A model generated the notes under the pieces. It had not been told where the DNA came from. It was given only the letters and a program-made list of their open reading frames with translations, and made no database searches. The translations under genes were made by a program, and so were the position numbers. Shown piece by piece: positions 3,795 through 64,000 of a stretch of 64,000 nucleotides of DNA (the stretch's first letter is position 1; every line of letters begins with the position of its first letter). Source of the stretch: Basidiobolus meristosporus CBS 931.73 (lineage: Eukaryota; Basidiobolomycota; Basidiobolomycetes; Basidiobolales; Basidiobolaceae); the NCBI GenBank assembly GCA_002104905.1, contig MCFE01000103.1, positions 107,534 to 171,533 on the forward strand, in the 5' to 3' direction.

Positions 3795-5804
3795 CTGTCA
3801 ATGCAACTGGACATTGGAGTTTCCCAACAGATCTGAATCAGGTTGATTACTTGAGGACTGCATCAGCTTGAAGCTGGACTTCTTTTTGGGCAGGACTTGG
3901 CAAAGTGACCTGGTTGGCCACAGTATAGACAGAGGTTGGCTTGTTGATGTCGGGACTTTTCACTCTCTGATAGTTTCTTGTATTTGGCACTATCAATCTG
4001 CATAGGATCTTCTGGAGTGACTTGGGGAGCTGAAGGGGCTGGGACTGCAACAGGAATGTGTCTTTGACGGTTCTTTTGCTTCTTCTAGAATAGTCTGTTA
4101 TCACACTAGTGTGGTGGTGTATAGGTCCAAGGGAGATATATGCCCAACACTTCTCAAGTGTTTTGTGTGTGGGGTGTTCACTGGGTGCAATAACCTCTGG
4201 CAAAAGCTTGCTAGGAATACTTGGGTTCTGTCTCTAATCTAATGTGAAGGGGAATAAAGCCACAAGCTTGTCAAGGGAAAACTATTGAGCTACAATCCCC
4301 AACTTAGTTGGCAGCTTAACATAAGTATGTGCTGGCTTCAGCGTCCTTTGAGATGACAATGTACTAGAGCTTCCAAAGTCAAAACAACTGTAAACTCCAC
4401 CAGCAGGGACTTGATAAGAATGCAGCTGTGGTCAATAGTTACAAAGACAGAAATGTATCTTTGCCTGTACAAGAACAAGCTTGGGAAAGAATCAAATATA
4501 ATAAAAGATACCTACTCTGAGTATTCCTCACAAGTAGTGCCTCCAAGGTCAGTTGGCTGTCAGTGCAGTTTCCTGGGAGCATCCTGTGGTCTGGGGTTGG
4601 AAGTTCAGGTAGCAGCAGGTAGCAGTGATCACACTAATCAACAAGTTGGTATATTGATAAAAGGGATGATGATTTATTGTCAAGGGATAGCCTCCCTTAT
4701 ACACTTTTCTTACTGGCTAAGTGATTACTAATCATGGTGTTCCAGAAGGTTCTGGATATCAGTGGAAATCTTAATGATATCAGAATGACCTAAGAATGTT
4801 CTAAGTAGGTACCAGAAGGTTCTAAGAGGCACAGCACATCCAACCAATCAGGAATCAGTATTTTGAAACCTGTGTAACATAGGGATACCATATATGGTAT
4901 GGAAATGGCAATGATGGTGACATGGGTTGATTATGTGTTACAGGTACTGGCGTGGGTACTTGCATAATATAGAAGCGCTTATAGCTAGTAATCTTACATA
5001 AAGTGAGAGGTAACTTATGCAATAAGGTAAGCAGGTGTGATAGTCAACCAGCTTATGGGATAGTACTGATCAGGTAAGACAAATGGGATAAAACTAAAAT
5101 TAGTGTAGTAGAGATATAGGGAAGTAGAAAATATGGGAATGAGCACATCTGTTGGTGGGTGTCACTGTCACCCCACTACACCAGATTGCTTGGTGCATAG
5201 CTTCAACCAATGTATCTGGATCTGGGAGTGTGAGTAGCAGATCACATACTTCATCATTGAGGCCATCATGGAATCGGCTAATCAAGGCTGCTTGACCCCA
5301 GGAGCTGAGGTCACTGGAGAGTTGCTGGAATTCTGAGGCATAGACTGATGCTGGTTTGTTCCCTTGTTTGAGGGTCTTGATCTTGTTGGCAGCAGTTCTG
5401 GCTTGGTCAAGGTTACCAAATGTTAGCTCCATTTCAGTGAGAAAGGCTTGGTAGTCTCTGAGTAGGGGAGAATTGGTCTCCACTAATGGGGACAACCACT
5501 TCAGAGCTGTACCAGTAAGCAGGTTGGAGATGAAGCCAACTTTGGCCTGGTCAGTGGGGTACTGGTAGGGCTGGAGTGCAAGATTGTTCTTCATCATGTT
5601 GATGAAGCCACAGAATTCATTCTGAGAGCCATTGAACTTGGTAGCAGGAGTACACTTGGGTTCTTGGTAGACTGGAACATGGCTAGTTTGCTGGACACTT
5701 TGGTTGTGGAACTGAGCAAGAGTGTTTCTGAGGTCTGCATGGTCTTGCTGCAGTTGGGTAAAGGCAGCCATGAGCTGGGCAAAGTTCAGCTCTAGGTTGG
5801 ACAT
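3795..5804 (-). pseudogene. gag (retrotransposon capsid/nucleocapsid), interrupted
   Basis: The ATG at 5804 opens a reading frame starting MSNLELNFAQLM. It holds a short coiled coil, the retrotransposon gag core (conserved WLSPLVE and YASEFQQL-type segments) and ends in AIWC at about 5182. The expected continuation DNRLF resumes at about 4101 after the inserted block. Downstream in that frame there is a TAG stop, then a perfect CCHC zinc knuckle (C-X2-C-X4-H-X4-C) at 3890-3931. The frame stops near 3795. Gag would package the element RNA in cytoplasmic particles. Broken by insertion and by the stop just after it. Confidence 0.85.
4106..5178. mobile_element. 1.07-kb insertion splitting gag, with leader-like and LTR-like content
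   Basis: The gag codon TGT is split here. The flanks repeat the bases ACAC (4102-4105 and 5178-5181), as for a 3-4 bp target duplication. The ends form a short imperfect inverted repeat (TAGTGTGGTG against TAGTGGGGTG). Inside, 4209-4540 resembles the 5' leader of the host element (about 5830-6150), and 4620-4960 resembles LTR sequence with TTTATT and TATA-like parts. No coding capacity is evident. It could be a non-autonomous relative carrying leader plus LTR sequence, or a composite fragment. Confidence 0.55.
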
Positions 5805-6197
5805 GGTAGGAGAGGAAGGCGGATGAACTTGCAAGGAATACTGGAATATACTAAACTAGATTGTGGGTTTGTAAAGCCACTAGTATGTCAAGAATACAAC
5901 TATAGAGCCACAATCCCCAACTTAAATAAGTTAGCATCACTTCAGAAGGTACTGGTTTTGACATCCTTTGATAGAGTATTGTACTAAAGCTTCCAATACT
6001 GTAACAACTGTAAACTCCACCAGCAGGGTAATAAAGTGAATGCAGCTTTGACCAATAGTTTTACAAAGATAAAGTATCTTTGCCTTTATAGGACAAGACT
6101 AGGGAAAGATGATGGGTGATACTTATGGTGAGTATTCCTTTTACAAGTTTTCTTCAAACTTTGGGCAGAAGGCATGGATCCACAGGTAAGTCAGGAG

Positions 6198-16427: not shown

Positions 16428-17123
16428 TCAAAGACCAACTTTGCCGAGGAGGTTCTTCAGGCAAATCTTAGCGTTGGCCTTGACCCCCGCAACATTGGCA
16501 TCGGCACGGATGTCGTCACACTCATCGTGATGCTCTTGAATGTAGTCACCGTTGTAGTCTCCGCTGTAGTCTCCATCATAGTCCGCATCGTAGTCCCCTT
16601 CGCCATAGTCTTCTTCGTAATCGCCCTCATAGTCGCCCTCATAGTCATCCTCATAGTCACCAGAGTAGTCGGTGCTGTCATAGCCATTACCATGATCCTC
16701 GCCCTCACCCTCGCCCTCATAACTGTCCTCATGATCACCTTCATAGTTGCTCCCGTAGCTGTTGCTTCCTTCATAGGATGTGTCATAGGAGGCATTGTTG
16801 TTTTCGTAGTCACCGCCTTCGCCACCACCCTCACCACCATTGTAGTCTTCATGGCCAACATCATAGCTATTGTTGTTTTCGTAGTCGCCACCTTCGCCTC
16901 CACCCTCACCACCATTGTAGTCTTCATGGCCAACATCATAGCTATTGTTGTGATCCTGGCCTACATTGCCATAGCTGCCTCCGGAACCGTTGTAGTCGGA
17001 GGTATCGTAGGATGATTTGCTTGAGCCTTGAATCCCAGTGGTGTACTCTCTTGGGATGGCTAATCCATCAGTGAGGTTGACGATGGCGAGGGCGGTGATG
17101 GTGAGTAGTCCAAGGTACTTCAT
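16428..17123 (-). CDS. Secreted Asp/Glu/Gly/Tyr-rich repeat protein, copy A
   Basis: A 231-aa intronless frame. The N terminus MKYLGLLTITALAIVNLTDG is a signal peptide. The mature part is very acidic and low in complexity: two 25-residue repeats (core SYDVGHEDYNGGEG), then Ser/Tyr/Gly-rich and GDYEGDY-type repeats. A distinct 35-residue tail with two cysteines (ECDDIRADANVAG..KICLKNLLG) ends the protein. No hydrophobic anchor follows the signal, so it is probably secreted or wall-associated. I do not recognise the family; clustered acidic residues could bind cations such as Ca2+, and the conserved tail may be the functional or anchoring part (inference). A TATA-like run lies at about 17199-17210 upstream. 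It pairs with copy B, divergently transcribed. Confidence 0.8.
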   Translation of the reverse strand: MKYLGLLTITALAIVNLTDGLAIPREYTTGIQGSSKSSYDTSDYNGSGGSYGNVGQDHNNSYDVGHEDYNGGEGGGEGGDYENNNSYDVGHEDYNGGEGGGEGGDYENNNASYDTSYEGSNSYGSNYEGDHEDSYEGEGEGEDHGNGYDSTDYSGDYEDDYEGDYEGDYEEDYGEGDYDADYDGDYSGDYNGDYIQEHHDECDDIRADANVAGVKANAKICLKNLLGKVGL

Positions 17124-17687
17124 GGTATATTTACGATTCCGTTAACTGGATAATTACTCGAAGAGAGTGGCTGATAAACAACGGAGAACATCACCGCTTT
17201 ATTTATATATTATTCACAAGACTCTGACTTGGATGTATCCTCACGTGTACATCAAGCACCTTTTTGCATAGATTGAAAGTTGCATAGCATCTAGCACCAG
17301 TCGATCTGTTCAGCTGTAATGTAGATCTAGTAATGGAGTCTGTTATTCGTGATATAGCTCAGTAGAGAGTAGCACATGCAAATGTGAACGCACGTTTATA
17401 AGGGGCAAATACAGTTGAGCTCAAGTCGGGTAACGGAGTCCCTTGACACCAACTAATATCTGAGATTGGCGAGTGGGATTAAACGGATTTGTCTTGAACC
17501 TATTTCTCAACTTTGGCCTGCAGATCTCCAAGGGCGAACTTCGAGGTGCATCCCATCCAGATTGACCAAATAAATCTGCCATTTAATTATTGATCTACAT
17601 TAATGGGAATTCACCTCAACCGTGCCTATATATAGTGGATGAAACGAATGTCATCCACATACTCAAGCTTTTGACAGTTTAACTCAA
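17124..17687. promoter_or_regulatory. Divergent promoter region between the two acidic-protein genes
   Basis: This 564-bp spacer carries one TATA-like element per side: TATATAAATA-type sequence on the minus strand near 17199-17210, and CTATATATAG at about 17627-17637 on the plus strand, some 50 nt before the copy B start. The two halves are not inverted copies of each other, although the genes they drive are. Confidence 0.5.
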
Positions 17688-18464
17688 ATGAAGTACATTG
17701 GATTACTCACCGCCCTCGCCATCGTCAACCTCACTGATGGATTAGCCATCCCAAGAGAGTACACCACTGGAATTCAAGGCTCAAGCAAATCATCCTACGA
17801 TACCTCCGACTACAACGGTTCCGGAGGCAGCTATGGCAATGTAGGCCAGGATCACAACAATAGCTATGATGTTGGCAATGAAGACTACAATGGTGGTGAG
17901 GGTGGAGGCGAAGGTGTCGACTACGAAAACAACAATAGCTATGATGTTGGCCATGAAGATTACAATGGTGGTGAGGGTGGAGGCGAAGGCGGCGACTACG
18001 AAAACAACACTAGCTATGATGTTGGCCATGAAGACTACAATGGTGGTGAGGGTGGTGGCGAAGGCGGTGACTACGAAAACAACAATGCCTCCTATGACGC
18101 ATCCTATGAAGGAAGCAACAGCTACGGGAGCAACTATGAAGGTGATCATGAGGACAGTTATGAGGGCGAGGGTGAGGGCGAGGATCATGGTAATGGCTAT
18201 GACAGCACTGACTACTCTGGTGACTATGAGGATGACTATGAGGGCGACTATGAGGGCGACTATGAGGGCGATTACGAAGAAGACTATGGCGAAGGGGACT
18301 ACGATGCGGACTATGACGGAGACTACAGCGGAGACTACAACGGTGACTACATTCAAGAGCATCACGATGAGTGTGACGACATCCGTGCCGATGCCAATGT
18401 TGCGGGGGTCAAGGCCAACGCTAAGATTTGCCTGAAGAACCTCCTCGGCAAAGTTGGTCTTTAA
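17688..18464 (+). CDS. Secreted Asp/Glu/Gly/Tyr-rich repeat protein, copy B
   Basis: A 258-aa intronless frame, nearly identical to copy A. Differences: two residues fewer in the signal peptide (IT missing), three instead of two 25-residue SYDVGHEDYNGGEG repeats, one more GDYE unit, and a few substitutions. The net +27 residues are accounted for by +25 +4 -2. The C-terminal tail with its two cysteines is the same. DNA identity starts at the ATG and ends at the stop (TAA here, TGA in copy A); flanks are unrelated. An AATAAA signal lies at 18574-18579. The function is unknown; predicted to be secreted and strongly negative. Confidence 0.82.
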   Translation: MKYIGLLTALAIVNLTDGLAIPREYTTGIQGSSKSSYDTSDYNGSGGSYGNVGQDHNNSYDVGNEDYNGGEGGGEGVDYENNNSYDVGHEDYNGGEGGGEGGDYENNTSYDVGHEDYNGGEGGGEGGDYENNNASYDASYEGSNSYGSNYEGDHEDSYEGEGEGEDHGNGYDSTDYSGDYEDDYEGDYEGDYEGDYEEDYGEGDYDADYDGDYSGDYNGDYIQEHHDECDDIRADANVAGVKANAKICLKNLLGKVGL

Positions 18465-27790: not shown

Positions 27791-28106
27791 GTGTGTTGAC
27801 AATGGAGTTACACAGCAAGTGATTACTTGCCTGAACCACGCGGGACATTTTCATGGTAGTTGATTCAACCGAGATATACGTCATGTTATCGAGGGATCCT
27901 GTGGATTCGTTACGAGATCACGTCTGGAAGACAAACCAAAATTCACAGTGAATACTCTAAGAAAGTAATTTATTACAGAGGTTTTGGTTGAATGATCGTA
28001 AAATAAATGTCCATTACTAATGTCCATAATGAAAAAAGTCCATAAATTAGATCTGTTTAGATCTTTAACTTAAAAAAATGTCCTTGGGTGATGTGAATCA
28101 CGCTAT
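27791..28106. other. Intergenic VPS68 / SAM synthetase
   Basis: 316 bp containing the VPS68 promoter and the SAM synthetase 3' untranslated region. No other feature seen. Confidence 0.4.
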
Positions 28107-29335
28107 TTAGAAGTTAAGCTTCTTGGGTTGTTCCCAGGCGAACTCCTCACGACCGAAGTGACCGTAGCAAGCGGTCTTGGAGTAGACGGGCTTGAAGAGG
28201 TTGAGCTCCTTGACAATGACACCTGGACGGAGGTCCCAGTTGTTCTTGATGATTTCGAGAAGCTCGGCGTTGGTCTTGGTGCTGGTACCGTAGGTATCGA
28301 CGAAGATGGAGAGGGGCTCAGCAACACCAATGGCATAGGAAAGTTGGACCAAACAACGCTTGGCCAAACCGGCGGCAACCAAGGACTTGGCGATCCAACG
28401 AGCGGTGTAGGCAGCGGAACGATCGACCTTGGACCAGTCCTTTCCGGAGAAGGCACCACCACCGTGAGCACCCCAACCACCATAGGTATCGACGATGATC
28501 TTACGGCCGGTAAGACCAGCATCACCTTGAGGTCCACCAATGATGAACTTGCCAGAAGGTTGCAAGTGGTAAATAGTCTTGTCATCAAGAAGGTTGGCAG
28601 GGATGACGGCATCAATAACCTTCTCCTTCAATTCACGACGAATGGTCTCGTTGTCGACCTCAGGGGCATGTTGAGTGGAGATAACAACGGTGTCAACTCT
28701 AAGAGGAACCATAGCACCGTTGTCGTTCTTGTACTCAACGGTAACTTGGGTCTTGGAATCAGGGCGCAACCAGCCGAGAGTACCATCACGACGGAGCTCA
28801 CTCATCTTGTAGTTAAGCTTGTGAGAAAGGGTAACGGTAAGGGGCATAAGCTCAGGGGTCTCGTCGGAAGCATAACCGAACATGATACCCTGGTCACCAG
28901 CACCGGTGTCCTCGATGGCTTGACTGACTTGGACCAAACCTTGAGCAATATCAGGAGATTGTTGCTCAATGGCAACAAGGACGTTGCAGGTCTTGTAATC
29001 GAAGCCCTTCTCGGAATCATCATAACCAATCTTGCGGATGGTCTCACGAATGACCTTTTGGTAGTCGATTTGAGCCTTGGTGGTGATCTCACCGAAGACC
29101 ATGATCAAACCAGTCTTGGCAGCAGTCTCGCAAGCAACCTTGGAGAGAGGATCTTGGGCGAGGCAAGCATCGAGGATGGCATCGGAGACTTGATCGCAAA
29201 TCTTGTCTGTTCGATAGATGAAACAGTCAGCAAAATCGCCTCAAACGTAGAAACTCATGCAGGAACCAAATACATACCAGGGTGACCCTCACCGACGGAT
29301 TCAGAGGTGAAAAGGAAAGTTTCAGCAACGGTCAT
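28107..29335 (-). CDS. SAM2: S-adenosylmethionine synthetase
   Basis: Two exons, 29278-29335 and 28107-29206, separated by a 71-nt intron inside the EGHPDK motif; 385 aa. It makes S-adenosylmethionine from ATP and methionine in the cytosol. Visible: [20 protein letters not shown] at the N terminus (ATP/metal binding), ATP-binding [12 protein letters not shown], the P-loop-like [21 protein letters not shown], and [19 protein letters not shown]. Strong codon bias leaves a 385-codon open frame on the opposite strand. The symbol is by analogy with yeast, which has two copies; only one is visible here. Confidence 0.97.
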
Positions 29336-51229: not shown

Positions 51230-52168
51230 CTAATAGTCACACTCCGCTTGGTCGACACCACCACGGCATACGGTTCCAGGTGCACAGCGTTGTGTGTACT
51301 CGTATCCATTGGTGCATACTGTGAATTCCTGTGACTGTCCGGGATTTACGCATTTGGTTTTGTAACCCGAGCAGCGACCTGGCTTGTTGTTGCCGGGCTT
51401 CGAAGGTGTCCCTGGGTTAGTGGGAGGAGGATTGGGGGTAGTTGGAGGCTTGGTAGTGGCTGAGGGCTTAGTAGGCTTCTCAGTAGTAGAGGGTTTGGAA
51501 GGTTTGGTAGGTGTGGAAGGTTCTGGTGCGACCACATCGCCACCGTTGCCAGTTACCTTCACGGTAGGCCTCTTGGGGAACAAATCCTTACCACTGTATC
51601 CACCGTTCGTAAACTCGGGAATTGTCACGTATCCGGGAAGATTGGCAACCAACAACTTAGGGCCAGTGATAGAACCGGAGGGACTACCTTGGATCTCAAC
51701 GTCGGCGCAGTTCATGTAATATTCACGATTACCAGTTTTGTTGATCCAAGCCCAAGCGAAAGTGGCCCTGCCACTGGGTGCTCCGGCTGGGATCTGAATA
51801 CTGTAATCTTTGGATGCAATTAAGCAATCATCAAAAACGTCCTTAAGGACGACAAAGGTTTTATCATCGTACGATAAGGCAAATTGACAATGGCCTCCAT
51901 TGTGAGGGGCACCGCCGCCAATCTTGACTGGGAGGGTACCTCCGGCCTTGACGGTTTGGACAACTCCGCCTTTGCCATATCCACGGCAAGGATAAGGCCA
52001 ACGACCAGATTCCAGGGGAGAACTCATATCGTAGTCGGGAGAACCCTTGTAGGTAGGGTTGTACTGCGACTGGCGAGGAGGAGGCTGGATCAGTTCCATA
52101 TGACCGAGGGCGAAAGGAGCAAGCGCCAACAAAGCGAAGACAGGAAGAGAGAGTTTGGAGAAAACCAT
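51230..52168 (-). CDS. Secreted AA11-like lytic polysaccharide monooxygenase with CBM19-like module
   Basis: 312 aa, intronless. A 22-residue signal peptide ends ALG, so the mature protein would start with His (HMELIQPPPRQ), as copper-dependent LPMOs require. A second histidine lies in APHNGGHCQFALSYDD; PSGRATFAWAWINKTGNREYYMNCADVEI matches the AA11-type core and supplies the axial Tyr/Phe region. A Pro/Thr/Lys-rich linker (about residues 215-265) leads to a six-Cys C-terminal module (GRCSGYKTKCVNPGQ .. CTNGYEYTQRCAPGTVC) like the chitin-binding CBM19. Inferred role: oxidative cleavage of chitin, in nutrition or wall remodelling. The family label (AA11) is from motif memory. Confidence 0.85.
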   Translation of the reverse strand: MVFSKLSLPVFALLALAPFALGHMELIQPPPRQSQYNPTYKGSPDYDMSSPLESGRWPYPCRGYGKGGVVQTVKAGGTLPVKIGGGAPHNGGHCQFALSYDDKTFVVLKDVFDDCLIASKDYSIQIPAGAPSGRATFAWAWINKTGNREYYMNCADVEIQGSPSGSITGPKLLVANLPGYVTIPEFTNGGYSGKDLFPKRPTVKVTGNGGDVVAPEPSTPTKPSKPSTTEKPTKPSATTKPPTTPNPPPTNPGTPSKPGNNKPGRCSGYKTKCVNPGQSQEFTVCTNGYEYTQRCAPGTVCRGGVDQAECDY

Positions 52169-55100
52169 ATTGTCAGTTAAAAGTTTAGCCAGCTAGCCTG
52201 CTAGAAAAGTCGGTGGGATCTATTCCGGTAGATCAAAGTTCGTGCTGTCAAGGTGAGCGAGCCAAGGCAGTTTTATAAGCTGGCTATTGTCACGAAATCT
52301 TTAACTATCCTTAACAATTACTGTTACTGAAGATAAAATCACAAAGAGTGTATTTGGGTTAGAATCAAACTTTTGTCATACAGCAATAAGCGCTCGGTGT
52401 ATCAAAAGATATGGTGATACATTGCTTTCCCAAATCTAGCACTACTGGCCAGCTCTAGCCTGTTATGAGACCCATGCTGGTCCCAGTACTTCATATTTTA
52501 GTTTATAAACCGGTCGATATTATTTGTTACTGAAACAACTGTATATGAGAGGTGCCAATGCTAGCGCCGCTAACCGGTTTAAAGCTTATTAATTAAAGCC
52601 TACCTGAACAATTGAACCCTGAAGCCTGCCTGAACAATTGAACCCCGAAGCCTACCCTGAACTTGCTTCTCTATATACTTCAGCAATTAATGGGCATTGC
52701 AACTACCCGTTTCTAGAGGTTGAACTGCTATTATTTCCGACAAGGGGATTCAAGTATATCATTCGATACTTTCCCTTTATTTTGGTTCATGCGACCATGA
52801 TCGTACCAAGGGTTCAGTGACTAGATGCTACTCAAGCCTGTATTGGTGCCAGGTGACCGAATACCAATACGGTACGACACCATTGGTGTAGCTACTCGGT
52901 TTCCCAGTCCTCTTGGATATGTGAAACGCTGACCAATGTTCCCTTTCTTTGGGTTGTTGAGCAATTCGATGCATATGACTAGCAGTAACATGACACAACA
53001 GATAGTTGGATGATATTCTTGCCAATTCAATATACAGAAGTACAAGTAGCCCTGGATTATTTTATGAGTTGTTTTCTGCCACTAGTATTATCAGTCTCCA
53101 AGGTTGTGGATTATCTGCCATTCAAGTATTTGTTAGAGCAATGTTTAGTTAACCACCTTGTGTCGCAATCTGATAGTTAGCTTGCCCACATTACTTGTAA
53201 TCAATTTAACCCGTACTATGCTCTCGGAATTAGAAGTTGTCACATAGTACGTGTTCTCTATTTGTGCTTGATATACGAATGATTGCATATGAGTTACTCT
53301 AACTCTTTACAGCATTTTGAAGTATTCAGCAAAATATCGTGGTTTTACTCTGTTAATCTAGTATAAATATATAGAGGATATTTTGCGAACATATCGAATT
53401 TGCTGAAATACCAAGAATATAGATGTGCTTAAAAGCCCCTACACTTACACATAGACTCCCATGACCTTCTCCAAATTTCCATCATTTCCTGCATATTTGT
53501 GAAATTTAGTCAAATGACTATCAAGATGGACTATAAGTGTCACAAAGAAATATGTAGAAAGTGCAGAGGCCATTGGACAACCTTGGGGTGATTTTGTTTT
53601 CTCTACGTTTCTACATTTGACTTTCCAAGTTACATGGCGATTTGTGAATGTCAGGTGTGGAACTTTTCTGACCAGCTTGCAGCTCTTGGTAAGTCTGAGG
53701 ACTTTCATAATAAGACTTGATACATACAAAACTGGATTCAGTTGTAAGTTTTTTGGATATATTGAAAGTGTTTGGGAGGAGATGGTGGACTACATGGTTT
53801 CATTTAGATTACTTATTGACTATAGAAGATATCTGTACTCTCCTGCATGTAAAGTATGGTTAGTATTGTGATGCTGCAAGTGATTAGGAGAACAAATAGA
53901 TTATTAGGTTTCCGCTTAGTGGCTGGTTAAATGCAGAAGTAGCGTTGATATATTTCAAGTTTTGGCAAAAATGAACATACAAAATCGGCCCAAGGAGGTC
54001 TCAAAAGCTTGTGTGCAAAGCTTGGGGTCTTTGGAGCAATTATGAGAAATACCACTCTCTAGGCACTATAATATTTATATGACCAAAGTCTCTATCAAGC
54101 TCATTGATGAAGTGTGAATCATTTTTTCAGAGCCGATTTTGAATGATAATAGCTAATTCTACTAGATAGTAAAGTCCTAGTATTTATCAATACTTTCAAG
54201 GATACTCAAATGATCTTGAGCTTTGTATCCATCTTATGTAGCTACTTTTCAAATCCTAATTTCCAGCTTTACAAGGTCCCCTCAAAAGCATGATTATTTT
54301 ATCTGAGGTGCATAGGTTTACATGTGAATGTAAAGATTTTTCTTGTTTTCTAAGTTATGTCCAATACCAACATAAGCATCAAACACCAATATTTTGGAGA
54401 AAAGAATTAGAGTAATCACTGAAAAAAAGAGAGTATTTGGATGAGGGGTCTACAAAACTCTATGAACATGTTTATTTTTCCAACCAAGTTGAGTCTAAAG
54501 CCTCATGAGCAATCTAGATACAAAGCTGTATATTTCTATCTAAACTCTGATATGTAAATATAGAGTCTATCTATGCAACTTAAAGTTCCAGTTGATTTCC
54601 ATTATATCAGTTCAGCTATGTCACCAATTATAATAAATGAATATTTATTTGCAGGGCCAAGCTGCATCAAGTAGCACAATCTCACTAGTTTACACTGAGT
54701 ACCATGCAAGTTTCATTTCAGTTTGAAATCTAAATCATATCCACACTACCACGATACAGCAGCAAAATTCAAGTCTTGCCACTTTGAATAAAGGACCGAG
54801 GATTTATCAGTGGTAAATGCTATTAGCCTATAAAATCCAAAGTCATCAAATTTGGCATAGTATAGAGGACGGAATGCCATTGAAAGAAAAAGGTAGCGAT
54901 AGCAACAAAATAAGAGCCAAAAGTAAGTTTTCAGTGTCTTGTTATAACATTGACTACAAGCGGTTTAGTGATATGTAAATATCACATTTCTATTGCAGCA
55001 AAATTCAATACAGATGAGAAAGAAATTTTCAAAATCAGTGCACATTTGGATGGCATACATAGATCCCGCTCAATAGCCATACATATTTGCATGTTGTAAA

Positions 55101-56993: not shown

Positions 56994-58117
56994 ATGGAGT
57001 TTGTATTATGCTTAATGACAAACAGATATATATGTATGTAAAGTGAATATCAATAATATATATGAATAAATCCTATTGTACCCTACTTCTACTATGGTGA
57101 ACGCATTGGAAGAATCTATCTATTTGTGAAGATCGTTGGAAAAAGCAAACAATTAGCTAAAATGGTAGATCGTTGGAAGTGCATCATTCATTGGCCAATT
57201 AACTCGCATTGCATTGAAAAAGGCAAGTAAAGATTCCTAAATCATTGGCCAAGAAATTCGCAAATGGTAGAGCCAAACAAGCTTTTAGTCCAGATCTCGT
57301 ATCAGACTTCTAATAGGTAGTGTCGACATGTGGCTCAAACAAAACCCAGTAATCATTGGCTCCTTACTTTTTCAGTGGTGGTGCTGCCTAGATCAAGCAG
57401 GCAGGTGTTGAACCTAGCTGGGCTTGATTTCGATCCTTCCTTTGGAGGTTGTCACCTGAGTGAGAGTCCTAAACTGTAACTTTCAAAGTTTGACGCATAA
57501 CGCCACTTGCGAGTCGCAGTTTAGAAATGCTTCCAACATTGGAAAGTCGATTTTCTATCGGAGTATCCAGAAATGTTGAATTATTGGCATATCAGAATTG
57601 GGTTTATTGTATACATTTGCCGTTAGCTGGTTAGCCGCTTGCGTTCAAACATACTGTGGAAATTACTTTGGTCTGTTCTCCTGTTTGAGTCGAATATTGT
57701 TTTTCCGCTACGCATAGGTTGCTGGAATTTCGAGGATCGTATAAATGGTAAGCAATATACTTGCACCTCTGGGGTTGGTCATTCTGCAAATAGCCATCGC
57801 GCAAGTAGTTTGATTCTAGTATATTTCTGAAGTAGTTTGATTCTAGTATATTTCTGAGCTGGGTAAGTATAACCGGGTCAATATCCAGATACGGCAGTTT
57901 CCTTGCTGGTATAAACCCAATGGGTCATGATTGTTACCTTGATTTATAGAGGTGGCGATAACGTTACAGTGGGATCAAAAGATTAAGATTTTGTTTTATG
58001 TGCTGTGATTAGCTGCCAGTTGTTTGCTTATGTTCTATAGTTGAGTACAGATTACAAAATTCAAAAACAACTATTATCCTCACAATCTTTGTGGACATGT
58101 CATACATCAAAGAGAGT
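56994..58117. other. Intergenic before the subtelomeric retroelements
   Basis: 1.1 kb without supported genes. A perfect 27-bp tandem duplication (AGTAGTTTGATTCTAGTATA..) lies at 57804-57857. Confidence 0.5.
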
Positions 58118-58275
58118 AGGGTCAGGGGGGGAGGGAAAGTCACCATTACAGTGAAATCTTTATTTTTCAAAATAATTACAAAAATCACTAAGCTAAAAAA
58201 TAATGATGCCAGCTAAGAGTTTTTAAATCTGTGAAGTAATTAATCAAGCTTGAACTTAGCTTCTTATGTAAGATT
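58118..58275 (-). mobile_element. Relic 3' end of the telomeric non-LTR family (element 0)
   Basis: At 58117-58136 a TAGGGTCAGGGGGGG-like run precedes AGGGAAAGTCACC, and 58140-58154 can form the same hairpin stem as elements 1-3 (TCACC against AGTGA, one U-G pair in RNA). Downstream come GTGAAATCTTTATTT and GATGCCAGC, both shared with the other 3' ends. No coding sequence remains. The copia LTR starts at 58276 inside or at the end of this relic. Confidence 0.6.
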
Positions 58276-58624
58276 TGTTGTAAGAGTCTTGGAGATACTG
58301 GAAGTGATTTGGAGGACAAGTAGATTATGTAGCTTTCACTTAATGATTTATTGAATGTAAAGTAATATTTATACTTTTACATGGTCTTGGCATTACAAAC
58401 ATCGTAGAATATGTTAGGGAAGGTCCCAAGAGCATGTGTGCAAAGTGTGGGGCAGTTTGGACAGCTTTGAGAATTTTCATGCTCTGGGTACCTGGTATTT
58501 TGGTGCAAATATTCTAAGTAAATGCCGACAAGGAATTTGGTCAGTATTCTCTAGGATTTGAGAGTAATGATCTAGGTGACTAAGTTAGGTGAATATTTAG
58601 GTGGAATTACAAACTTTTACAACA
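58276..58624 (-). repeat. 3' LTR of the copia element
   Basis: 349 bp, plus-strand ends TGTTGTAAGAG and TTTTACAACA, forming the TG..CA inverted ends. Next to it on the pol side the minus strand reads GAGTGGGAG, a polypurine tract. The partner LTR is lost. Confidence 0.8.
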
Positions 58625-58635
58625 CTCCCACTCAG

Positions 58636-60218
58636 CTAAATGTTCATACTGACTAGTCCTAATTTTGACCTAAGATATTCAAACTTGTCTCTAGCTAATG
58701 GTTTGGTAAATATGTTTGCAATCATTTCATCTGTTGGACAGTAAACTAAGCTAACTAAGTTATTCTCTATAGCTTCACATATGAAATGATGTCTAATGTC
58801 TATGTGTTTAGTTTTAGCATGAAAAGTTGTATTTCTACCTAATTGTATACATCCTTGATTATCTTGAAATAAGTGATAGGCTTTTTTTGACATAGGCCTA
58901 TATCTGTGAAGAAGCTTTCTTAACCACATTGCTTCTTTTGTAGCTTCACAGGCTGCCATATACTCTGCCTCTGTGGTGGAAAGTGCTACGGTTGGTTGCT
59001 TTCTTGAATTCCATGAAATTGCTCCTTTACAGTAAAGAAAGGTGTATCCTGTGGTGGATCTTCTGTCTTCCAAATTTTGTCCCCAATCAGCATCAGAGTA
59101 TCCCACAAGATCCTGTTCTGAATCCTTATAAGTGTATCTTAAGCAGATATCAGCATTTCCTTTTAGGTATCTAAAAATCCGCTTAACTGCTGCAATATGA
59201 TCAGATCCATGATTCTGATTATGTTGGCTAACAACTCCCACTGAATATGAGATATCTGGACATGTTCCAAGCATGATATATATCAGACTGCCGACCATAG
59301 ATTGATAAGGAAAGTCAGGGCTTTCAGATGGCACCAAGCTCTCTTGATTTGGTTGAGTTTTGACCAAGTTAAGGTTTGTCTCCATTGGGGTAGCTGCTGG
59401 TTTACAGTCTTCCATTTTGTACTTCTTTGGTATATCTTGAATATACTTGGATTGGCTTAGGGTAATAGTCTGGGTGCTTCTGTCTATGGAGAACCTAATC
59501 CCTAAGTAGTAACTAAGTTCTCCTAGATCGGACATCTTGAACTCCTTAGATAGGCTGGATTTAGTCTCTTCCAATGTTTCTAGGTTATTGGCAGCTATAA
59601 TAAGATCATCCACATATAGAGCTAATAGAACTGGATTTGCTCTATCTGGCTTAACGTATATACTATAGTCAGCATTACTTCTTTTGAAACTCAAAGATTC
59701 CAAATAAGAATCTATCTTGCAATTCCAGGCTCTTGGTGATTGTTTGAGACCATATAGTGACTTTTTAAGCTTGCAGACCAAATGGGGGTTATCTTGGTCA
59801 ACAAACCCATCAGGCAGGTCCATATACACATCCTCATCAAGTTCTCCATTCAAAAATGCAGTTTTTACATCCATTTGATGAATGAAAAACTTATATTTGG
59901 CTGCAATAGACAATATTAATCTGATGGAATTAAACTTGGCTACCGGTGCAAAGGTCTCAGTATAGTCAGGTCCTTTTGTTTGAGAGTATCCTTTGGCTAC
60001 AAGTCTTGCTTTGTATCTTTCAATTGTACCATCAGCCTTGTATTTTGTCTTGAAGACCCATCTGCACCCAATTGATTTTGGTTGATTGGTAATTTGACCA
60101 AGTCCCAAGTTTGATTTTCCATCAGGGCCTGATATTCCTCAATCATTGCAGATCTCCAAAACTTTGTCTGAGGGCTATTTAGGGCCTCTTTTACAGTCTG
60201 GGGTTCATCAATATGGAC
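58636..60218 (-). pseudogene. Copia pol fragment: reverse transcriptase and RNase H
   Basis: From about 60215 down: KEALNSPQTKFWRSAMIEEY, a frameshift near 60080 inside KLP..KSIGCRWVFKTKY, then an open 490-codon frame to 58636. That frame has RT motifs RLVAKGYSQ, MDVKTAFLNGELDEDVYM, LKQSPRAWN and the catalytic YVDDLI, then RNase H (VGYSDADWGQNLEDRRSTTGY, STTEAEYMA, KHIDIRHHFI). The N-terminal side is cut off by the telomeric block at 60219, so the protein cannot be made complete. Confidence 0.92.
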
Positions 60219-60255
60219 TGGGTTAGGGTTAGGGTTAGGGTCTAGGGTTAGGGGA
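60219..60255 (+). repeat. Interstitial telomeric repeats at the copia break
   Basis: About 35 bp: three TTAGGG units, a TCTAGGG variant, then TTAGGGG. It joins the broken copia pol on the left and the 3' end of a non-LTR element on the right. Confidence 0.9.
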
Positions 60256-60262
60256 GGGAAAG

Positions 60263-60278
60263 TCACCAAAGTAGGTGA
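60263..60278 (-). other. Conserved 3' hairpin, element 1
   Basis: RNA-sense stem UCACC/GGUGA with a six-nt loop. The stem is shared with elements 0, 2 and 3; the loop differs. Confidence 0.6.
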
Positions 60279-60376
60279 AATCTTTGTTTGATTTCAGACA
60301 AGTCTAACTACAAATAAAGAAGCCAGCTGGGAATAGAAGATTCCCAAAGTAAACACTAAGTTGAATATGAATAAAT

Positions 60377-61105
60377 CTAAGCTAAAGTTAAGGCAGTATC
60401 CCAGAGTACACTGGAGTTCAGGTTCATGGGGGAGTGAAGTAGATAAGCTTGAGAGATATAATAATCTTTGAGGAAGTGGGTAACAGCAGGTGAAGGGGAG
60501 TTTTTGATAAGTGAAGTGAATCTTGAGAGCAGAGATTCCTCTAATGAGAAGGTCTTGTAAACTGGAGAATCAGGAAACTCTTTAAAGGCATGGTCAGTAG
60601 GTTCCCAGTAGAACTGGTCAGAGACATTTTGAGAGAACTCTTTAGCATTACTTTTGTCAAGTACTACCTCCAGAGTGTGATTGTTGATAAATCTCATGTT
60701 AACAATCTTGGATAAGTTGTAACCTTGTTGCTTGAGATACATCCTATGCTCAGATATAGGAATGAACTCAACATTGGCAAAGTAGCAGACAGCCCAGTCA
60801 GTAGCAGGAGGCAGATCAGAAGTAGAAGGAAACTTTCTTTTAGTCTTGGGAGGAGCAGCAGGATGTCTTGAGGAAGTAGGAACAGACTTTTTGACAGCTT
60901 CAGAGTAGGAAGAGTGAGCAGGAGCAGATAATTCTTGGGGAGTCTTGTTGGCAGGAAGAGTTGGCACAGGGACAATTGATTCTTGCAGATCAGAGAAGGC
61001 AGAAAACAGCTTTTGAACTTGCTTCTTGAGTAGAGCATTTTCAGCTTCAACAAGTGCAAGCCTTTCCTCCAGGAAAGAAATCTGAAGGGAATGGAGTGAA
61101 GGCAT
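60377..61105 (-). CDS. ORF1 (gag-like) protein of a non-LTR retrotransposon
   Basis: 242 aa from the ATG at 61105 (MPSLHSLQISFLEERLALVE); the frame is open further upstream but that part belongs to the next element. An N-terminal leucine-rich coiled coil (residues 5-40) is followed by a Ser/Pro/Lys-rich linker and a domain (DWAVCYFANVEFIPISEHRM .. NNHTLEVVLDK) resembling the RNA-binding region of ORF1 proteins in fungal Tad/I-type elements. No CCHC knuckle is seen. Probable role: RNA binding and particle formation. The frame is intact. Confidence 0.6.
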   Translation of the reverse strand: MPSLHSLQISFLEERLALVEAENALLKKQVQKLFSAFSDLQESIVPVPTLPANKTPQELSAPAHSSYSEAVKKSVPTSSRHPAAPPKTKRKFPSTSDLPPATDWAVCYFANVEFIPISEHRMYLKQQGYNLSKIVNMRFINNHTLEVVLDKSNAKEFSQNVSDQFYWEPTDHAFKEFPDSPVYKTFSLEESLLSRFTSLIKNSPSPAVTHFLKDYYISQAYLLHSPMNLNSSVLWDTALTLA

Positions 61106-61178
61106 AAGAAATAAGAAGAAGAGGGTAGGATGGGGTGGGTGGGTGGGAAAATTAGCAGGGAGAAGAGAAGGGGGGGGG

Positions 61179-63163
61179 AGACAGTCACCAACAGGTGAAA
61201 TCTTTATTTCAGTTGAAACAAAGAAGCCAGCACTACTGTTGTAGCTTTGATACAAGAGTGTGTAGCTGAGGGGAATTTGTAGGTAAGTTAATAAGAAGTG
61301 ATGATAGTTCTTCAGTGCTCAAGACACTGTTGAGTGGGAAGGGGGGTAGCAAGAGAGGTAAGAATGACTTGTGAACAACATTAATGAGGGGAATGTGATA
61401 AGGATTGATATTCATCATAAAGGGAGTGTGCTGCTGCAGATATTGCTGCCAAAGGTCTGTCAAGTACTTCAGGTAGGCCAGCTTGGGTTTTTCTGACTGC
61501 AGAATAAATTCAGCAAACTTCTTGACTTCAGGATCTCCAAGTATAGTTCTCCAGCAGGAGCCAGGTGTTGTGTGGTGTATTCTCTTCCAGGCCTTAATCA
61601 GTGGGTTGTTGCAGTTGTGAAGTCTGAGGAATAATCTGGTTCTAAGGTAGAGAAGTCTGATCTTATAGGGCATAAACCCAAAAGCACCAAGAATAGCATG
61701 TCTGTAGGGGCATTCAGGCAAATGAGGCACCAAGGAGGTAATGCACCATACTGCAAACTTGTCAAGCTTAGTGCAGTCTCTAGATGTAAGAGAGAGAAGT
61801 GGTAAGCCAAATTCCAGGACAGGGAAGACAAACTGCTTGAGTAGAAGAAGGCAGCTGGGAGCTGAAGTTGTAGGAGGAGTAACAGCCAGTAGCTTGTGGA
61901 GTGCCTGTCTTGCCAGGATAATTCTCTTCTTCAGGTGTGCTCCAGAGTCTAGTCCAGTAGGAAGGAAAGGAAAGCCAAGATATGTAGCAGAAACCTGAGC
62001 AGGTAGAGTGGAGTTCTCCAAGTTGATGGGAGAGCCCAAAGGTACTGTCTTTGCAATGGAAAGCTGGAGATTATTCTTCTGCAGATACTGGTGGATGGTC
62101 TGGGAGTCTTGTTGCACATTGGAGGAGGATATTCTGATGTCATCAGCAAAGAGAGTAACCAGGCAGTCAGCTGAGAGTCTTGGGAAATCATTCAGGAAGA
62201 TGGCAAACAGTATAGGACCAAGCACAGAGCCTTGAACCACTCCATTAGGAACTGAGAACACAGCTGATTGCTCACTTGGGTGCAGAATTCTTGCTTGTGG
62301 ATCCAGAAACAGCGACCTGACAAGGAGGGTGAGAGAGGTACTGGAGAAGCATTGCAACTTGGACCAAAGCACATTTCTGTCAACAGAATCAAAGGCCTTA
62401 GTAATATCAAACAGAACAGAGGGATACTTGCACTGGAGAGAGTGATCTTAGCTAAGTATGACTGCATATTCCAAGGAGAGGCCAGGAACAAAGCCAAACT
62501 GTGCAGGATGAAACTTGAGGGAGTCAGAGTAGAGCTCCTGAGCAAGCAGAAGCTCAAACACCTTTCCGCAGGTGGGCAGCAGAGATATTGGCCTATAGGA
62601 GCTAGGATCCAGGTGCTTTCCTTTACCCTTGTACAGTGGCAGAACATTTGCAAAGGACCATTCCTCAGGAGTAGAAAGCTGGGCTGAGCATTGCTGAAAC
62701 AGTGGAAGCAGAAGTGCAGACATGGCGTTGGTACTAGTCTTCAGAAGCTCATAAGAGATTGTGTCCACACCTGGAGCAGTAGAGTTGGGAAGCCTCTTGA
62801 GCACATTATGGATTCTCCTTTGATCAAGTGCAAGTGGGATGGGCAGAGTGTTGAAGTCAGGATGAAAGCCAGGAGTTGAGTACTGCTTTGTAGAGAAGAA
62901 GATGTTAGCCAGCTGTTCTGTTGAAGGTAACTTCCTGGAAGAGGGCCTCATTGCCCTGTAGAGTCTTGATACTGTTCTTGTTATAGAGTTGGAAGATTGC
63001 AGAGGCAAGGAACTCATAATATGATCCCAGAGCTGAGTATGCAGAGTGTGGTGAATTGCCTTGGAGTGGTGTATTGCTGTCAGGAGGAGTTTCTCTGTTT
63101 TTGGGTTAGGGAAACTCAGGTAGCTTTGTTGCAGGGCTGAAACAATGGATTCCCATTTTCTTG
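61179..63163 (-). mobile_element. Telomeric non-LTR element 2 (RT-encoding, 5' truncated)
   Basis: The 3' end is at about 61179 next to G9; the family hairpin is at 61185-61198. The coding frame runs to 63163, where it is cut and joined to AGGGTTAGGGGGG. Everything upstream of the RT, including any endonuclease, is missing. Confidence 0.85.
61233..63163 (-). pseudogene. Non-LTR reverse transcriptase (ORF2), 5' truncated, one internal stop
   Basis: A single frame from 63163 to the stop at 61233, about 640 codons, interrupted only by a TAA at 62448-62450. RT motifs: LDQRRIHNVLKRLPNSTAPG, the FANVLPLYKGKGK..SYRPISLLPTCGKVFE block, QFGFVPGLSLEYAV, ITKAFDSVD, GVVQGSVLGPILFAIFLND and the catalytic LFADDIRI. 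After the thumb there is a Leu/Pro-rich tail ending HTLVSKLQQ. No restriction-like endonuclease or CCHC motif is seen after the RT, unlike MoTeR/CRE/R2 elements; an apurinic-type endonuclease would lie in the missing part. The one stop suggests a young copy. Confidence 0.85.
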
Positions 63164-63176
63164 AGGGTTAGGGGGG
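63164..63176 (+). repeat. Short telomeric block between elements 2 and 3
   Basis: AGGGTTAGGGGGG joins the cut 5' end of element 2 to the 3' end of element 3. Confidence 0.8.
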
Positions 63177-63765
63177 AGACAGTCACCAACAGGTGAAATC
63201 TTTATTTCAGTTGAAACAAAGAAGCCAGCGCTACTGTTGTAGCTTTGATACAAGAGTGTGTAGCTGAGGGGAATTTGTAGGTAAGTTAATAAGAAGTGAT
63301 GATAGTTCTTCAGTGCTCAAGACACTGTTCAGTGGGAAGGGGGGTAGCAAGAGAGGTAAGAATGACTTGTGAACAACATTAATGAGGGGAATGTGATAAG
63401 GATTGATATTCATCATAAAGGGAGTGTGCTGCTGCAGATATTGCTGCCAAAGGTCTGTCAAGTACTTCAGGTAGGCCAGCTTGGGTTTTTCTGACTGCAG
63501 AATATAGTGAGCAAACTTCTTGACTTCAGGATCTCCAAGTATAGTTCTCCAGCAGGAGCCAGGTGTTGTGTGGTGTGTTCTCTTCCAGGCCTTAATCAGT
63601 GGGTTGTTGCAGTGGTGAAGTCTGAGATATAATCTGGTTCTAAGGTAGAGAAGTCTGATCTTATAGGGCATAAACCCAAAAGCACCAAGAATAGCATGTC
63701 TGTAGGGGCATTCAGGCAAATGAGGCACCAAGGAGGTAATGCACCATACTGCAAACTTGTCAAGC
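63177..63765 (-). mobile_element. Telomeric non-LTR element 3 (short, 5' truncated)
   Basis: Near-identical direct copy of 61179-61768 (a dozen or so substitutions in about 590 bp), including the hairpin (63183-63196) and the last 166 codons of ORF2 (63231-63731). Its 5' side ends inside ORF2 at CAAGCTTAG, where the terminal telomere array begins; TTAG is shared by both sides. Confidence 0.92.
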
Positions 63766-64000
63766 TTAGGGTTAGGGTAGGGTTAGGGTTAGGGTTAGGG
63801 TTAGGGTTAGGGTTAGGGTTAGGGTTAGGGTTAGGGTTAGGGTTAGGGTTAGGGTTAGGGTTAGGGTTAGGGTTAGGGTTAGGGTTAGGGTTAGGGTTAG
63901 GGTTAGGGTTAGGGTTAGGGTTAGGGTTAGGGTTAGGGTTAGGGTTAGGGTTAGGGTTAGGGTTAGGGTTAGGGTTAGGGTTAGGGTTAGGGTTAGGGTT
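63766..64000 (+). repeat. Telomere, (TTAGGG)n
   Basis: About 39 units to the window edge, homogeneous except for one TAGGG unit near 63778. Orientation fits a right-hand chromosome end. Confidence 0.98.

Follow-up and report, generated by a model that had tools for sequence, protein, structure and literature searches.

Several families of telomere-associated retroelements share one C-ended tail in Basidiobolus meristosporus

The telomeric retrotransposons HeT-A, TART and TAHRE of Drosophila are divided between elements that encode Gag only and elements that bear a reverse transcriptase (RT). The Penelope-like elements of telomeres, Athena and Coprina, carry an RT of the PLE type and, to our knowledge, no endonuclease at telomeres, and long and short interspersed elements (LINEs and SINEs) form pairs with a shared 3' stem-loop tail, as do UnaL2 and its SINE. 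HeT-A, TART and TAHRE form head-to-tail arrays with their 3' ends towards the centromere (PMC10088271). SART and TRAS of the silkworm, which have a telomeric target, two open reading frames (ORFs) with endonuclease and RT in ORF2, and a 3' untranslated region that is needed, cut TTAGG repeats and are reported as full-length only at telomeres (PMC4700185). The fungal telomeric LINEs MoTeR, FoTeR and Cnl1 are of the CRE type (PMC12857005); MoTeR1/MoTeR2 of Magnaporthe and FoTeR of Fusarium are telomeric and head-to-tail, include truncated copies, are accompanied by an RT-less partner with common termini, and have arrays entered by a long terminal repeat (LTR) element, MAGGY (PMC7367193, PMC12857005). 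Here we describe the end of contig C36 (MCFE01000103.1) of Basidiobolus meristosporus CBS 931.73, a strain sequenced by PacBio (PMC7466969). The window, that is, the whole stretch analysed, is the final 64 kb of this 171.5-kb contig (C36:107534–171533) within an assembly of 89.0 Mb and 1311 contigs, and it closes with an array of units that, as judged from sequence comparison, probably represent telomere-specific non-LTR retrotransposons whose RT copies the RNA onto nearly bare chromosome 3' ends, with telomerase capping afterwards. No report of these elements was found among the open-access papers listed, which comprised a study of 6mA in Mucorales as well as reviews and papers on MoTeR and FoTeR, most subscription papers lying outside the scope of the search, and the text of the Basidiobolus genome paper (PMC7466969) contains neither 'telomer' nor 'transpos'.

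Four tails of the form GTCACC..GTGAAATCTTT lie on the + strand of the window, at 58139, 60262, 61184 and 63182, in one shared orientation, head-to-tail and with the 3' ends towards the centromere, and telomeric or G-rich sequence is found at each junction; in both respects an initial annotation of this DNA was accurate. Unit 1 starts with the junction TAGGGTCAGGGGGGG at 58117 and a ~140-bp telomeric-element tail (58117–58275, − strand; family E, hairpin loop ATTACA), identified by sequence and tail pattern and lying outside the interspersed copia matches considered below, and continues into a fragment of a Ty1/copia LTR retrotransposon (58276–60218, −) that is cut on its 5' side and abuts TTAGGG; this pol fragment matches RVT_2 (Pfam, E 1.8e-78), has an RVT_2/RNase H frame at 58636–60138, and is bounded at 58276 by the LTR edge, where the alignments stop. 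An interstitial telomeric tract of ~5 TTAGGG-like units with one interruption (60219–60254, +; sequence and Tandem Repeats Finder, TRF), the longest inter-element tract of the window, leads to unit 2 (60255–61170, −), an ORF1-only element of family C whose 5' end coincides with the boundary of a ~104-bp 5' monomer known from other copies; its ORF1-like frame (60377–61105, −) is intact, with 242 amino acids (aa; 60380–61105) plus stop, and resembles LINE ORF1s and a partial B. ranarum protein. Nine G residues without TTAGGG (61170–61178, +) join it to unit 3 (61179–63163, −), a 5'-truncated copy of LINE family A reduced to RT and 3' part (RVT_1, ORFs, comparison with longer copies), in which an in-frame stop divides the RT frame of the ORF list into 62448–63167 and 61233–62447. 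The junction AGGGTTAGGGGGG (63164–63176, +) is followed by unit 4 (63177–63765, −), a second 5'-truncated family A copy in which sequence and ORFs reveal the C-terminal part of ORF2 and the 3' tail, and then by the terminal TTAGGG array of 235 bp (63766–64000, +; TRF), which reaches the contig end. The initial annotation had taken at least three, and probably all four, units for non-LTR elements with cut 5' ends; this applies to units 3 and 4, while the body of unit 1 is copia and unit 2 is intact at a monomer boundary. The existence of the array is thereby confirmed, and the genome contains many more of its kind.

Genome-wide, the pattern GTCACCN{2,14}GTGAAATCTTT occurs 1480 times in forward and 137 times in reverse orientation; with 1617 occurrences against 0 in a reversed control, the tail is more than a chance string. 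One hundred tail matches listed fall into 26 contigs, none of them with tails on both strands. A stricter search for the exact family A tail returned 635 tails, with positions taken from the first 100 listed; among the matches listed, all 22 family A tails in contigs of at least 100 kb and known size (11 contigs) point outwards and lie no more than 18.2 kb from the end predicted by their orientation, so that the 3' motif is found at other contig ends, where the initial annotation had proposed to look for it. The 160.8-kb contig C291 has outward-pointing tails at both of its ends, a reverse one 2.1 kb in from the left and a forward one 4.2 kb in from the right. A 501-bp probe from the LINE 5' region behaved similarly: 38 of the 40 matches scored are forward, the 27 forward matches in contigs of known size sit 0–8.0 kb from the right end, and the two reverse matches are located in the 13.8-kb contig C217, at 9.8 kb from its left end, and in C726. 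In the places checked, nearly all tails are at contig ends and point outwards. No relatives were found in viral contigs, where 82 matches to the tail pattern were taken as chance. Across the whole assembly, TTAGGG 24-mers number 7428 forward versus 81 reverse, the telomere almost always being written at the right contig end, and tract lengths give a rough estimate of 200–260 telomeric ends.

The telomeric tracts that precede the tails are mostly short. In a sample of 43 distinct tails (one double match dropped), one perfect TTAGGG unit precedes 34, two precede one, three precede one, and none precedes 7, all of which have a run of at least 5 G instead. The perfect-unit rule shortens interrupted tracts, the window tract at 60219 with its ~5 units scoring as one; when small interruptions are allowed, the count is at most two units for 40 of the 43 tails and 3–5 units for the other three. 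The G run at these junctions varies from 3 to 10, and 41 of the 43 flanks before the tracts are distinct. For family A, 85 of the first 100 tails listed follow TTAGGG within 9 nt (lists compared by eye); genome-wide, at least two perfect units were counted at 116 matches (one place doubled, so ~115; ~18% of 635) and at least three at 13 tails (2%), the patterns behind these two counts using a shorter tail that may over-count and overlooking interrupted tracts and longer G runs. Terminal TTAGGG tracts measure 102–235 bp in nine contigs. Because the proximal tracts are short, whereas random entry into long arrays predicts long ones, attachment to nearly bare ends is favoured. The initial annotation had suggested the chromosome 3' end as primer and a telomerase cap, which the prevalence of 1–2-unit inter-element tracts favours, and we infer end-priming on this basis. 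Alternatively, the element RNA may itself encode the single TTAGGG. The TERT RNA-binding domain gave two matches above cut-off at C880, one with an internal stop, which are probably exons of a TERT gene.

Read as sense RNA, the tail ends in hairpin 1 (UCUUU......AAAGA), hairpin 2 (CACC-loop-GGUG) and a C run (...GGUGAC-UGUC-UCCCC). In the window it is exemplified by 63168–63240 (− strand), with a fold z of −3.51, and by the other family A tail at 61176–61240 (−2.78); family B reached −3.52, a family C copy in C2 −5.24 and family F −3.02. Hairpin 1 differs among families at its tenth pair, with C-G in A, G-C in B and C, and A-U in D and F, as seen in 24 unique tails of families other than A (loop-length limit), with A taken from its fold; two hairpin 1 pairs are broken in family D.

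Several element families carry this one C-ended tail, namely the LINEs A and B, the ORF1-only families C and F and the SINE-like family D, which goes beyond what the initial annotation saw; families A–F are named by the loop of the second hairpin. Family A (loop AACA, + strand) is a LINE of ~4.8 kb with an ORF1 that has a coiled coil and an ORF2, its size being assembled from pieces of 5'-reaching copies in C388, C463 and C442 and from the distance between tail and 501-bp probe in C2. The three copies begin with 3, 1 and 2 copies, respectively, of a ~103-bp 5' monomer and stop at the identical base before TTAGGG; ORF2 of the C442 copy is frameshifted. Family B (loop AAGTT) is a second LINE lineage of the same layout, its ORF2 sharing 48% identity with that of A over 890 positions (60% in the RT part) and having P0018 as its nearest other protein (65%). 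Family C (loop AAAGTAG and variants) encodes only an ORF1 of 242 aa behind 0 to several copies of its ~104-bp 5' monomer: copies that end at a monomer boundary have 0 monomers in the window and L190, 1 in L189 and 4 in L195, and those of L191 and L193 are cut inside a monomer. Family F, seen as a single copy, is a second ORF1-only family (266 aa). Family D (loop AAGTGG) is SINE-like, with ~0.53 kb between consecutive tails, no long frame seen, a 5' start that agrees within a few bases in the 5 copies read, and three units in tandem in C2; a B-box-like string, GGTTCAAATCC, and an A-box-like string were recognized by eye, ARAGORN reported 0 tRNA genes, and cmscan gave no tRNA match up to E 5, neither program confirming an origin of D from tRNA. 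Three weak matches of family D to the ceN28 snoRNA, far under the gathering score, were dismissed. Family E (ATTACA/ATTGCA) was seen only as two tails, in the window and in C69, with different bodies.

A telomeric passenger family in which the copia body of unit 1 carries the shared tail was considered and rejected, as genome-wide matches stop at the LTR edge. With 40 of 4565 candidates scored, the copia query had 53 other genome matches, none of which includes query positions 1–127, while 39 run from positions 128–138 to the query end; five of these 39 were read, and no tail was present in any. Because the LTR edge is exact, the copia is best seen as an ordinary interspersed LTR element that would have inserted into the tail of a telomeric unit and then been truncated, its distal side being lost in the window. 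A known parallel is MAGGY in MoTeR arrays (PMC7367193). Elsewhere, a gypsy RNase H/integrase fragment found inside an array (L040:4370–5820, and L184 of C484) has a TTAGGG|A junction that is common to two contigs, which hints at copying from one chromosome end to another.

In families A and B, ORF1 and ORF2 are set apart by one in-frame UGA with CUA as the next codon, as displayed by nine A loci and one B locus, and the codons past CUA vary among loci. ORF2 has its first Met at residue 142 in A and at residue 59 in B, downstream of the first endonuclease motifs, and UGA CU(A) has been described as a readthrough core in fungi and animals (PMC4207609). ORF2p would accordingly be a readthrough product of the UGA-CUA stop, although it may arise by termination and re-initiation instead. 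The ORF1 proteins of A, B, C and F have a C-terminal domain in common. C and F are 46% identical over 242 aa positions, with proportions of synonymous and nonsynonymous differences (pS, pN) of 0.81 and 0.35; since the protein is conserved despite saturation at synonymous sites, the ORF1-only families have been maintained as genes. Seven of 11 family C frames (ten loci) have 242 aa, including the window copy L188, for which a protein search returned one relative, a partial B. ranarum protein with 49% identity over 67%. Two hypothetical proteins of strain CBS 931.73, P0001 (K493DRAFT_353650) and P0004 (K493DRAFT_353622), contain pieces of telomeric LINE ORF2, in P0001 the ORF2 C-terminus in three tandem copies, and hence look like mis-annotated host genes.

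Families A and B are non-LTR retrotransposons (LINEs), with an RVT_1 match of E 9.6e-25, matches to LINE-1 ORF2p in PDB (E 6.4e-13) and variable 5' truncation. Three matches to the window RT protein stem from CBS 931.73 itself (98% over 60% of the query, 93% over 72% and 63% over all of it). In longer copies, the N-terminal region of ORF2 can be aligned with endonucleases of APE-type LINEs. Of the 13 A and B loci, 11 show its N, GD-x-N, C-V-D-W and S-D-H motifs in full, L190 having only the N motif and L193 no S-D-H match, whereas Asp takes the place of the metal-binding Glu of the E-T motif in each of the 13 loci that cover it as well as in P0015 and P0016 (P0017 and P0018 begin too late to cover this motif). 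The Pfam endonuclease domain scores under cut-off in A, is not matched in B and is just above cut-off in P0018 (27.5 vs 27.4). No Pfam domain was found past RVT_1 in A or B that would indicate a C-terminal restriction-like endonuclease, and neither the CCHC nor the RHD/N motif, as given in PMC12857005, occurs in the single A protein and the single B protein inspected, no REL profile having been run. By the features tested, these elements thus appear to fall outside the CRE clade and apart from the MoTeR lineage, as the initial annotation had supposed from the missing C-terminal domain. In a tree of 48 ORF2 proteins, made by a quick method and with no named clade references, A, B, P0003 and P0015–P0018 cluster with a support of 100 on a long branch (length 2) beside a group that includes two Rhizopus proteins; within the cluster, A and B belong to two sub-branches, each with relatives of its own. 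The lineage could be found only in Basidiobolus and other public sequences. Membership in the Penelope-like group (Athena, Coprina) fails on the RVT_1 match with LINE relatives and on the presence of an APE-like domain.

Taken together, these features suggest the following sequence of events. An RNA would be transcribed from the 5' tandem monomers and end in the two hairpins and the C-rich run; ORF1p would be translated from the first frame and ORF2p, with endonuclease and RT, by UGA-CUA readthrough. Where a chromosome is eroded or freshly healed, its G-rich 3' end, with about one TTAGGG unit, would pair with the C run, and the RT would copy the RNA onto this paired end. As the first cDNA strand would become the TTAGGG strand, the element would come to lie with its 3' end towards the centromere and its often truncated 5' end towards the tip. 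Telomerase would then cap the tip, and cycles of loss and re-attachment would build the array. The ORF1-only and the short SINE-like families probably owe their mobility to the RTs of both LINE families, acting in trans.

Several observations weigh against such attachment to chromosome ends. Internal arrays exist at 165 kb of the 246-kb contig C402, at 98 kb of the 218-kb C558 (reverse) and 56.5 kb from the left end of the 69.6-kb C726 (reverse), and C473 has a tail at a distance of 20.8 kb from the contig end. The tail fold is weak in D (−1.65), in E (−0.26; hairpin 2 only) and in the window copy of C (−1.49), and the best fold of family F has hairpin 1 without hairpin 2; moreover, compensation is confined to one pair, a single clear case because most pairs never vary. 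ORF2 keeps its endonuclease domain, the codons of which are under constraint when A is compared with B (pN 0.44, pS 0.80), so cleavage may matter, and a gypsy|TTAGGG|A junction is common to C2 and C484, so recombination also spreads arrays. In mammalian cells, L1 acts at uncapped but not at shortened telomeres (PMC4700185). Scattered internal copies, which the initial annotation had set against telomere specificity, do therefore occur in C402, C558 and C726, yet the four tails read there all adjoin TTAGGG or CCTAA, in C402 beside the apparent 3' end of a host gene and in C558 and C726 within arrays, as expected of internalised former chromosome ends or of mis-joins.

With the retained endonuclease in mind, ORF2p might instead nick the G strand near the telomere base and drive target-primed insertion into TTAGGG in the manner of SART/TRAS or MoTeR. 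The orientation of the elements would be identical, and the APE-like domain is kept, with its codons constrained and its N, GD-x-N, C-V-D-W and S-D-H motifs all present at 11 of the 13 loci. Random nicking in tracts of 17–39 units predicts many proximal units, however, while at least three perfect units precede only 13 of 635 family A tails and no perfect unit is present at the join in 7 of 43 sampled junctions; together with the Glu-to-Asp change in A, B, P0015 and P0016 and Pfam scores that are under cut-off in A and lacking in B, though just reached by P0018, this renders the nicking route unlikely. Arrays that are old and now spread mainly via recombination or break-induced copying between ends, with retrotransposition being rare, would account for the junction common to C2 and C484, for the three tandem D units in C2 and for the 99–100% identity over 501 bp of the 40 family A matches scored. 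We consider this improbable, given 41 distinct flanks for 43 sampled tracts, differing G-run lengths and several 5' ends that step by whole monomers (C: 0, 1, 4; A: 1, 2, 3), a pattern expected of transcripts that begin at monomer boundaries; other 5' ends, though, fall inside a monomer. Finally, that the contig ends were stitched from repeats during assembly might be suspected from the many array contigs of merely 10–20 kb and the orientation bias of telomeric 24-mers (7428 vs 81), but contigs of up to 345 kb reach the array, tail and junction type are alike in dozens of contigs, the ORF1-only protein has its relative in B. ranarum and ORF2 has relatives in other sequence sources, which makes an artefact highly implausible. 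Retrotransposition onto nearly bare ends hence remains our preferred reading. A more far-reaching version of it, which we offer only tentatively and with some doubt, would be an RNA-borne telomere-extension system beside telomerase, in which at least five families have a C-ended tail that pairs with TTAGGG overhangs, chromosome ends prime the RT, and the Glu-to-Asp endonuclease is dispensable for cutting.

The remainder of the window harbours a chromodomain-bearing gypsy pol (299–2734, −; Pfam) with a likely gag nearby (5100–5855, −; by eye), and a 75-bp repeat family in inverted arrangement (16794–16951 and 17854–18086), the right copy of which lies within a Gly/Tyr/Asp-rich open frame (17643–18464). 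At 28092–29285, frames of 397 and 377 aa overlap on opposite strands, the minus frame resembling S-adenosylmethionine synthetase by eye, and 51230–52192 (−) encodes a lytic polysaccharide mono-oxygenase-like protein that is under the Pfam cut-off.

Set against the known systems, the Basidiobolus elements share with HeT-A, TART and TAHRE the orientation of the units, but differ in that a TERT gene exists, the ends read are capped by TTAGGG and the tail consists of hairpins and a C run rather than poly(A). If the Drosophila group is defined by end attachment, 3' ends towards the centromere and absence of telomerase, the orientation agrees, while the TERT domain and TTAGGG caps do not; by the features tested, the Basidiobolus elements work like HeT-A/TART and are no member of the group. 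The layout of ORF2, the two ORFs and the telomeric target recall SART/TRAS; in contrast to these, truncated copies are common and tracts mostly have 1–2 units, junction lengths that would argue against cuts inside long arrays. MoTeR and FoTeR resemble the Basidiobolus elements as fungal, telomeric, head-to-tail arrays, but as members of the CRE clade they have a C-terminal restriction-like endonuclease, whereas Basidiobolus has an APE-like domain, two ORFs and two RT lineages, along with ORF1-only partners and a SINE-like partner; the tracts of MoTeR arrays can be as short as half a unit or exceed 20 units (PMC7367193). Family D is like the SINE of a LINE/SINE pair, a short non-autonomous element with a LINE 3' tail, yet the Basidiobolus members checked sit at chromosome ends. 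Endonuclease-independent L1 insertion (Morrish 2007, via PMC4700185) is alike in that RT is primed from an uncapped end; those events were seen in mutant mammalian cells, at uncapped and not shortened telomeres (PMC4700185), whereas Basidiobolus has hundreds of native copies on short stubs.

If our reading is true, an early-diverging fungus would harbour an independent APE-type lineage of telomeric LINEs that is accompanied by Gag-only and SINE-like partners. The HeT-A/TART division of labour would then have evolved again, in an organism that keeps its telomerase gene and TTAGGG caps. The hundreds of natural junctions offer material on how an RT chooses between DNA cutting and a bare chromosome end, and the shared RNA tail is amenable to in vitro testing.

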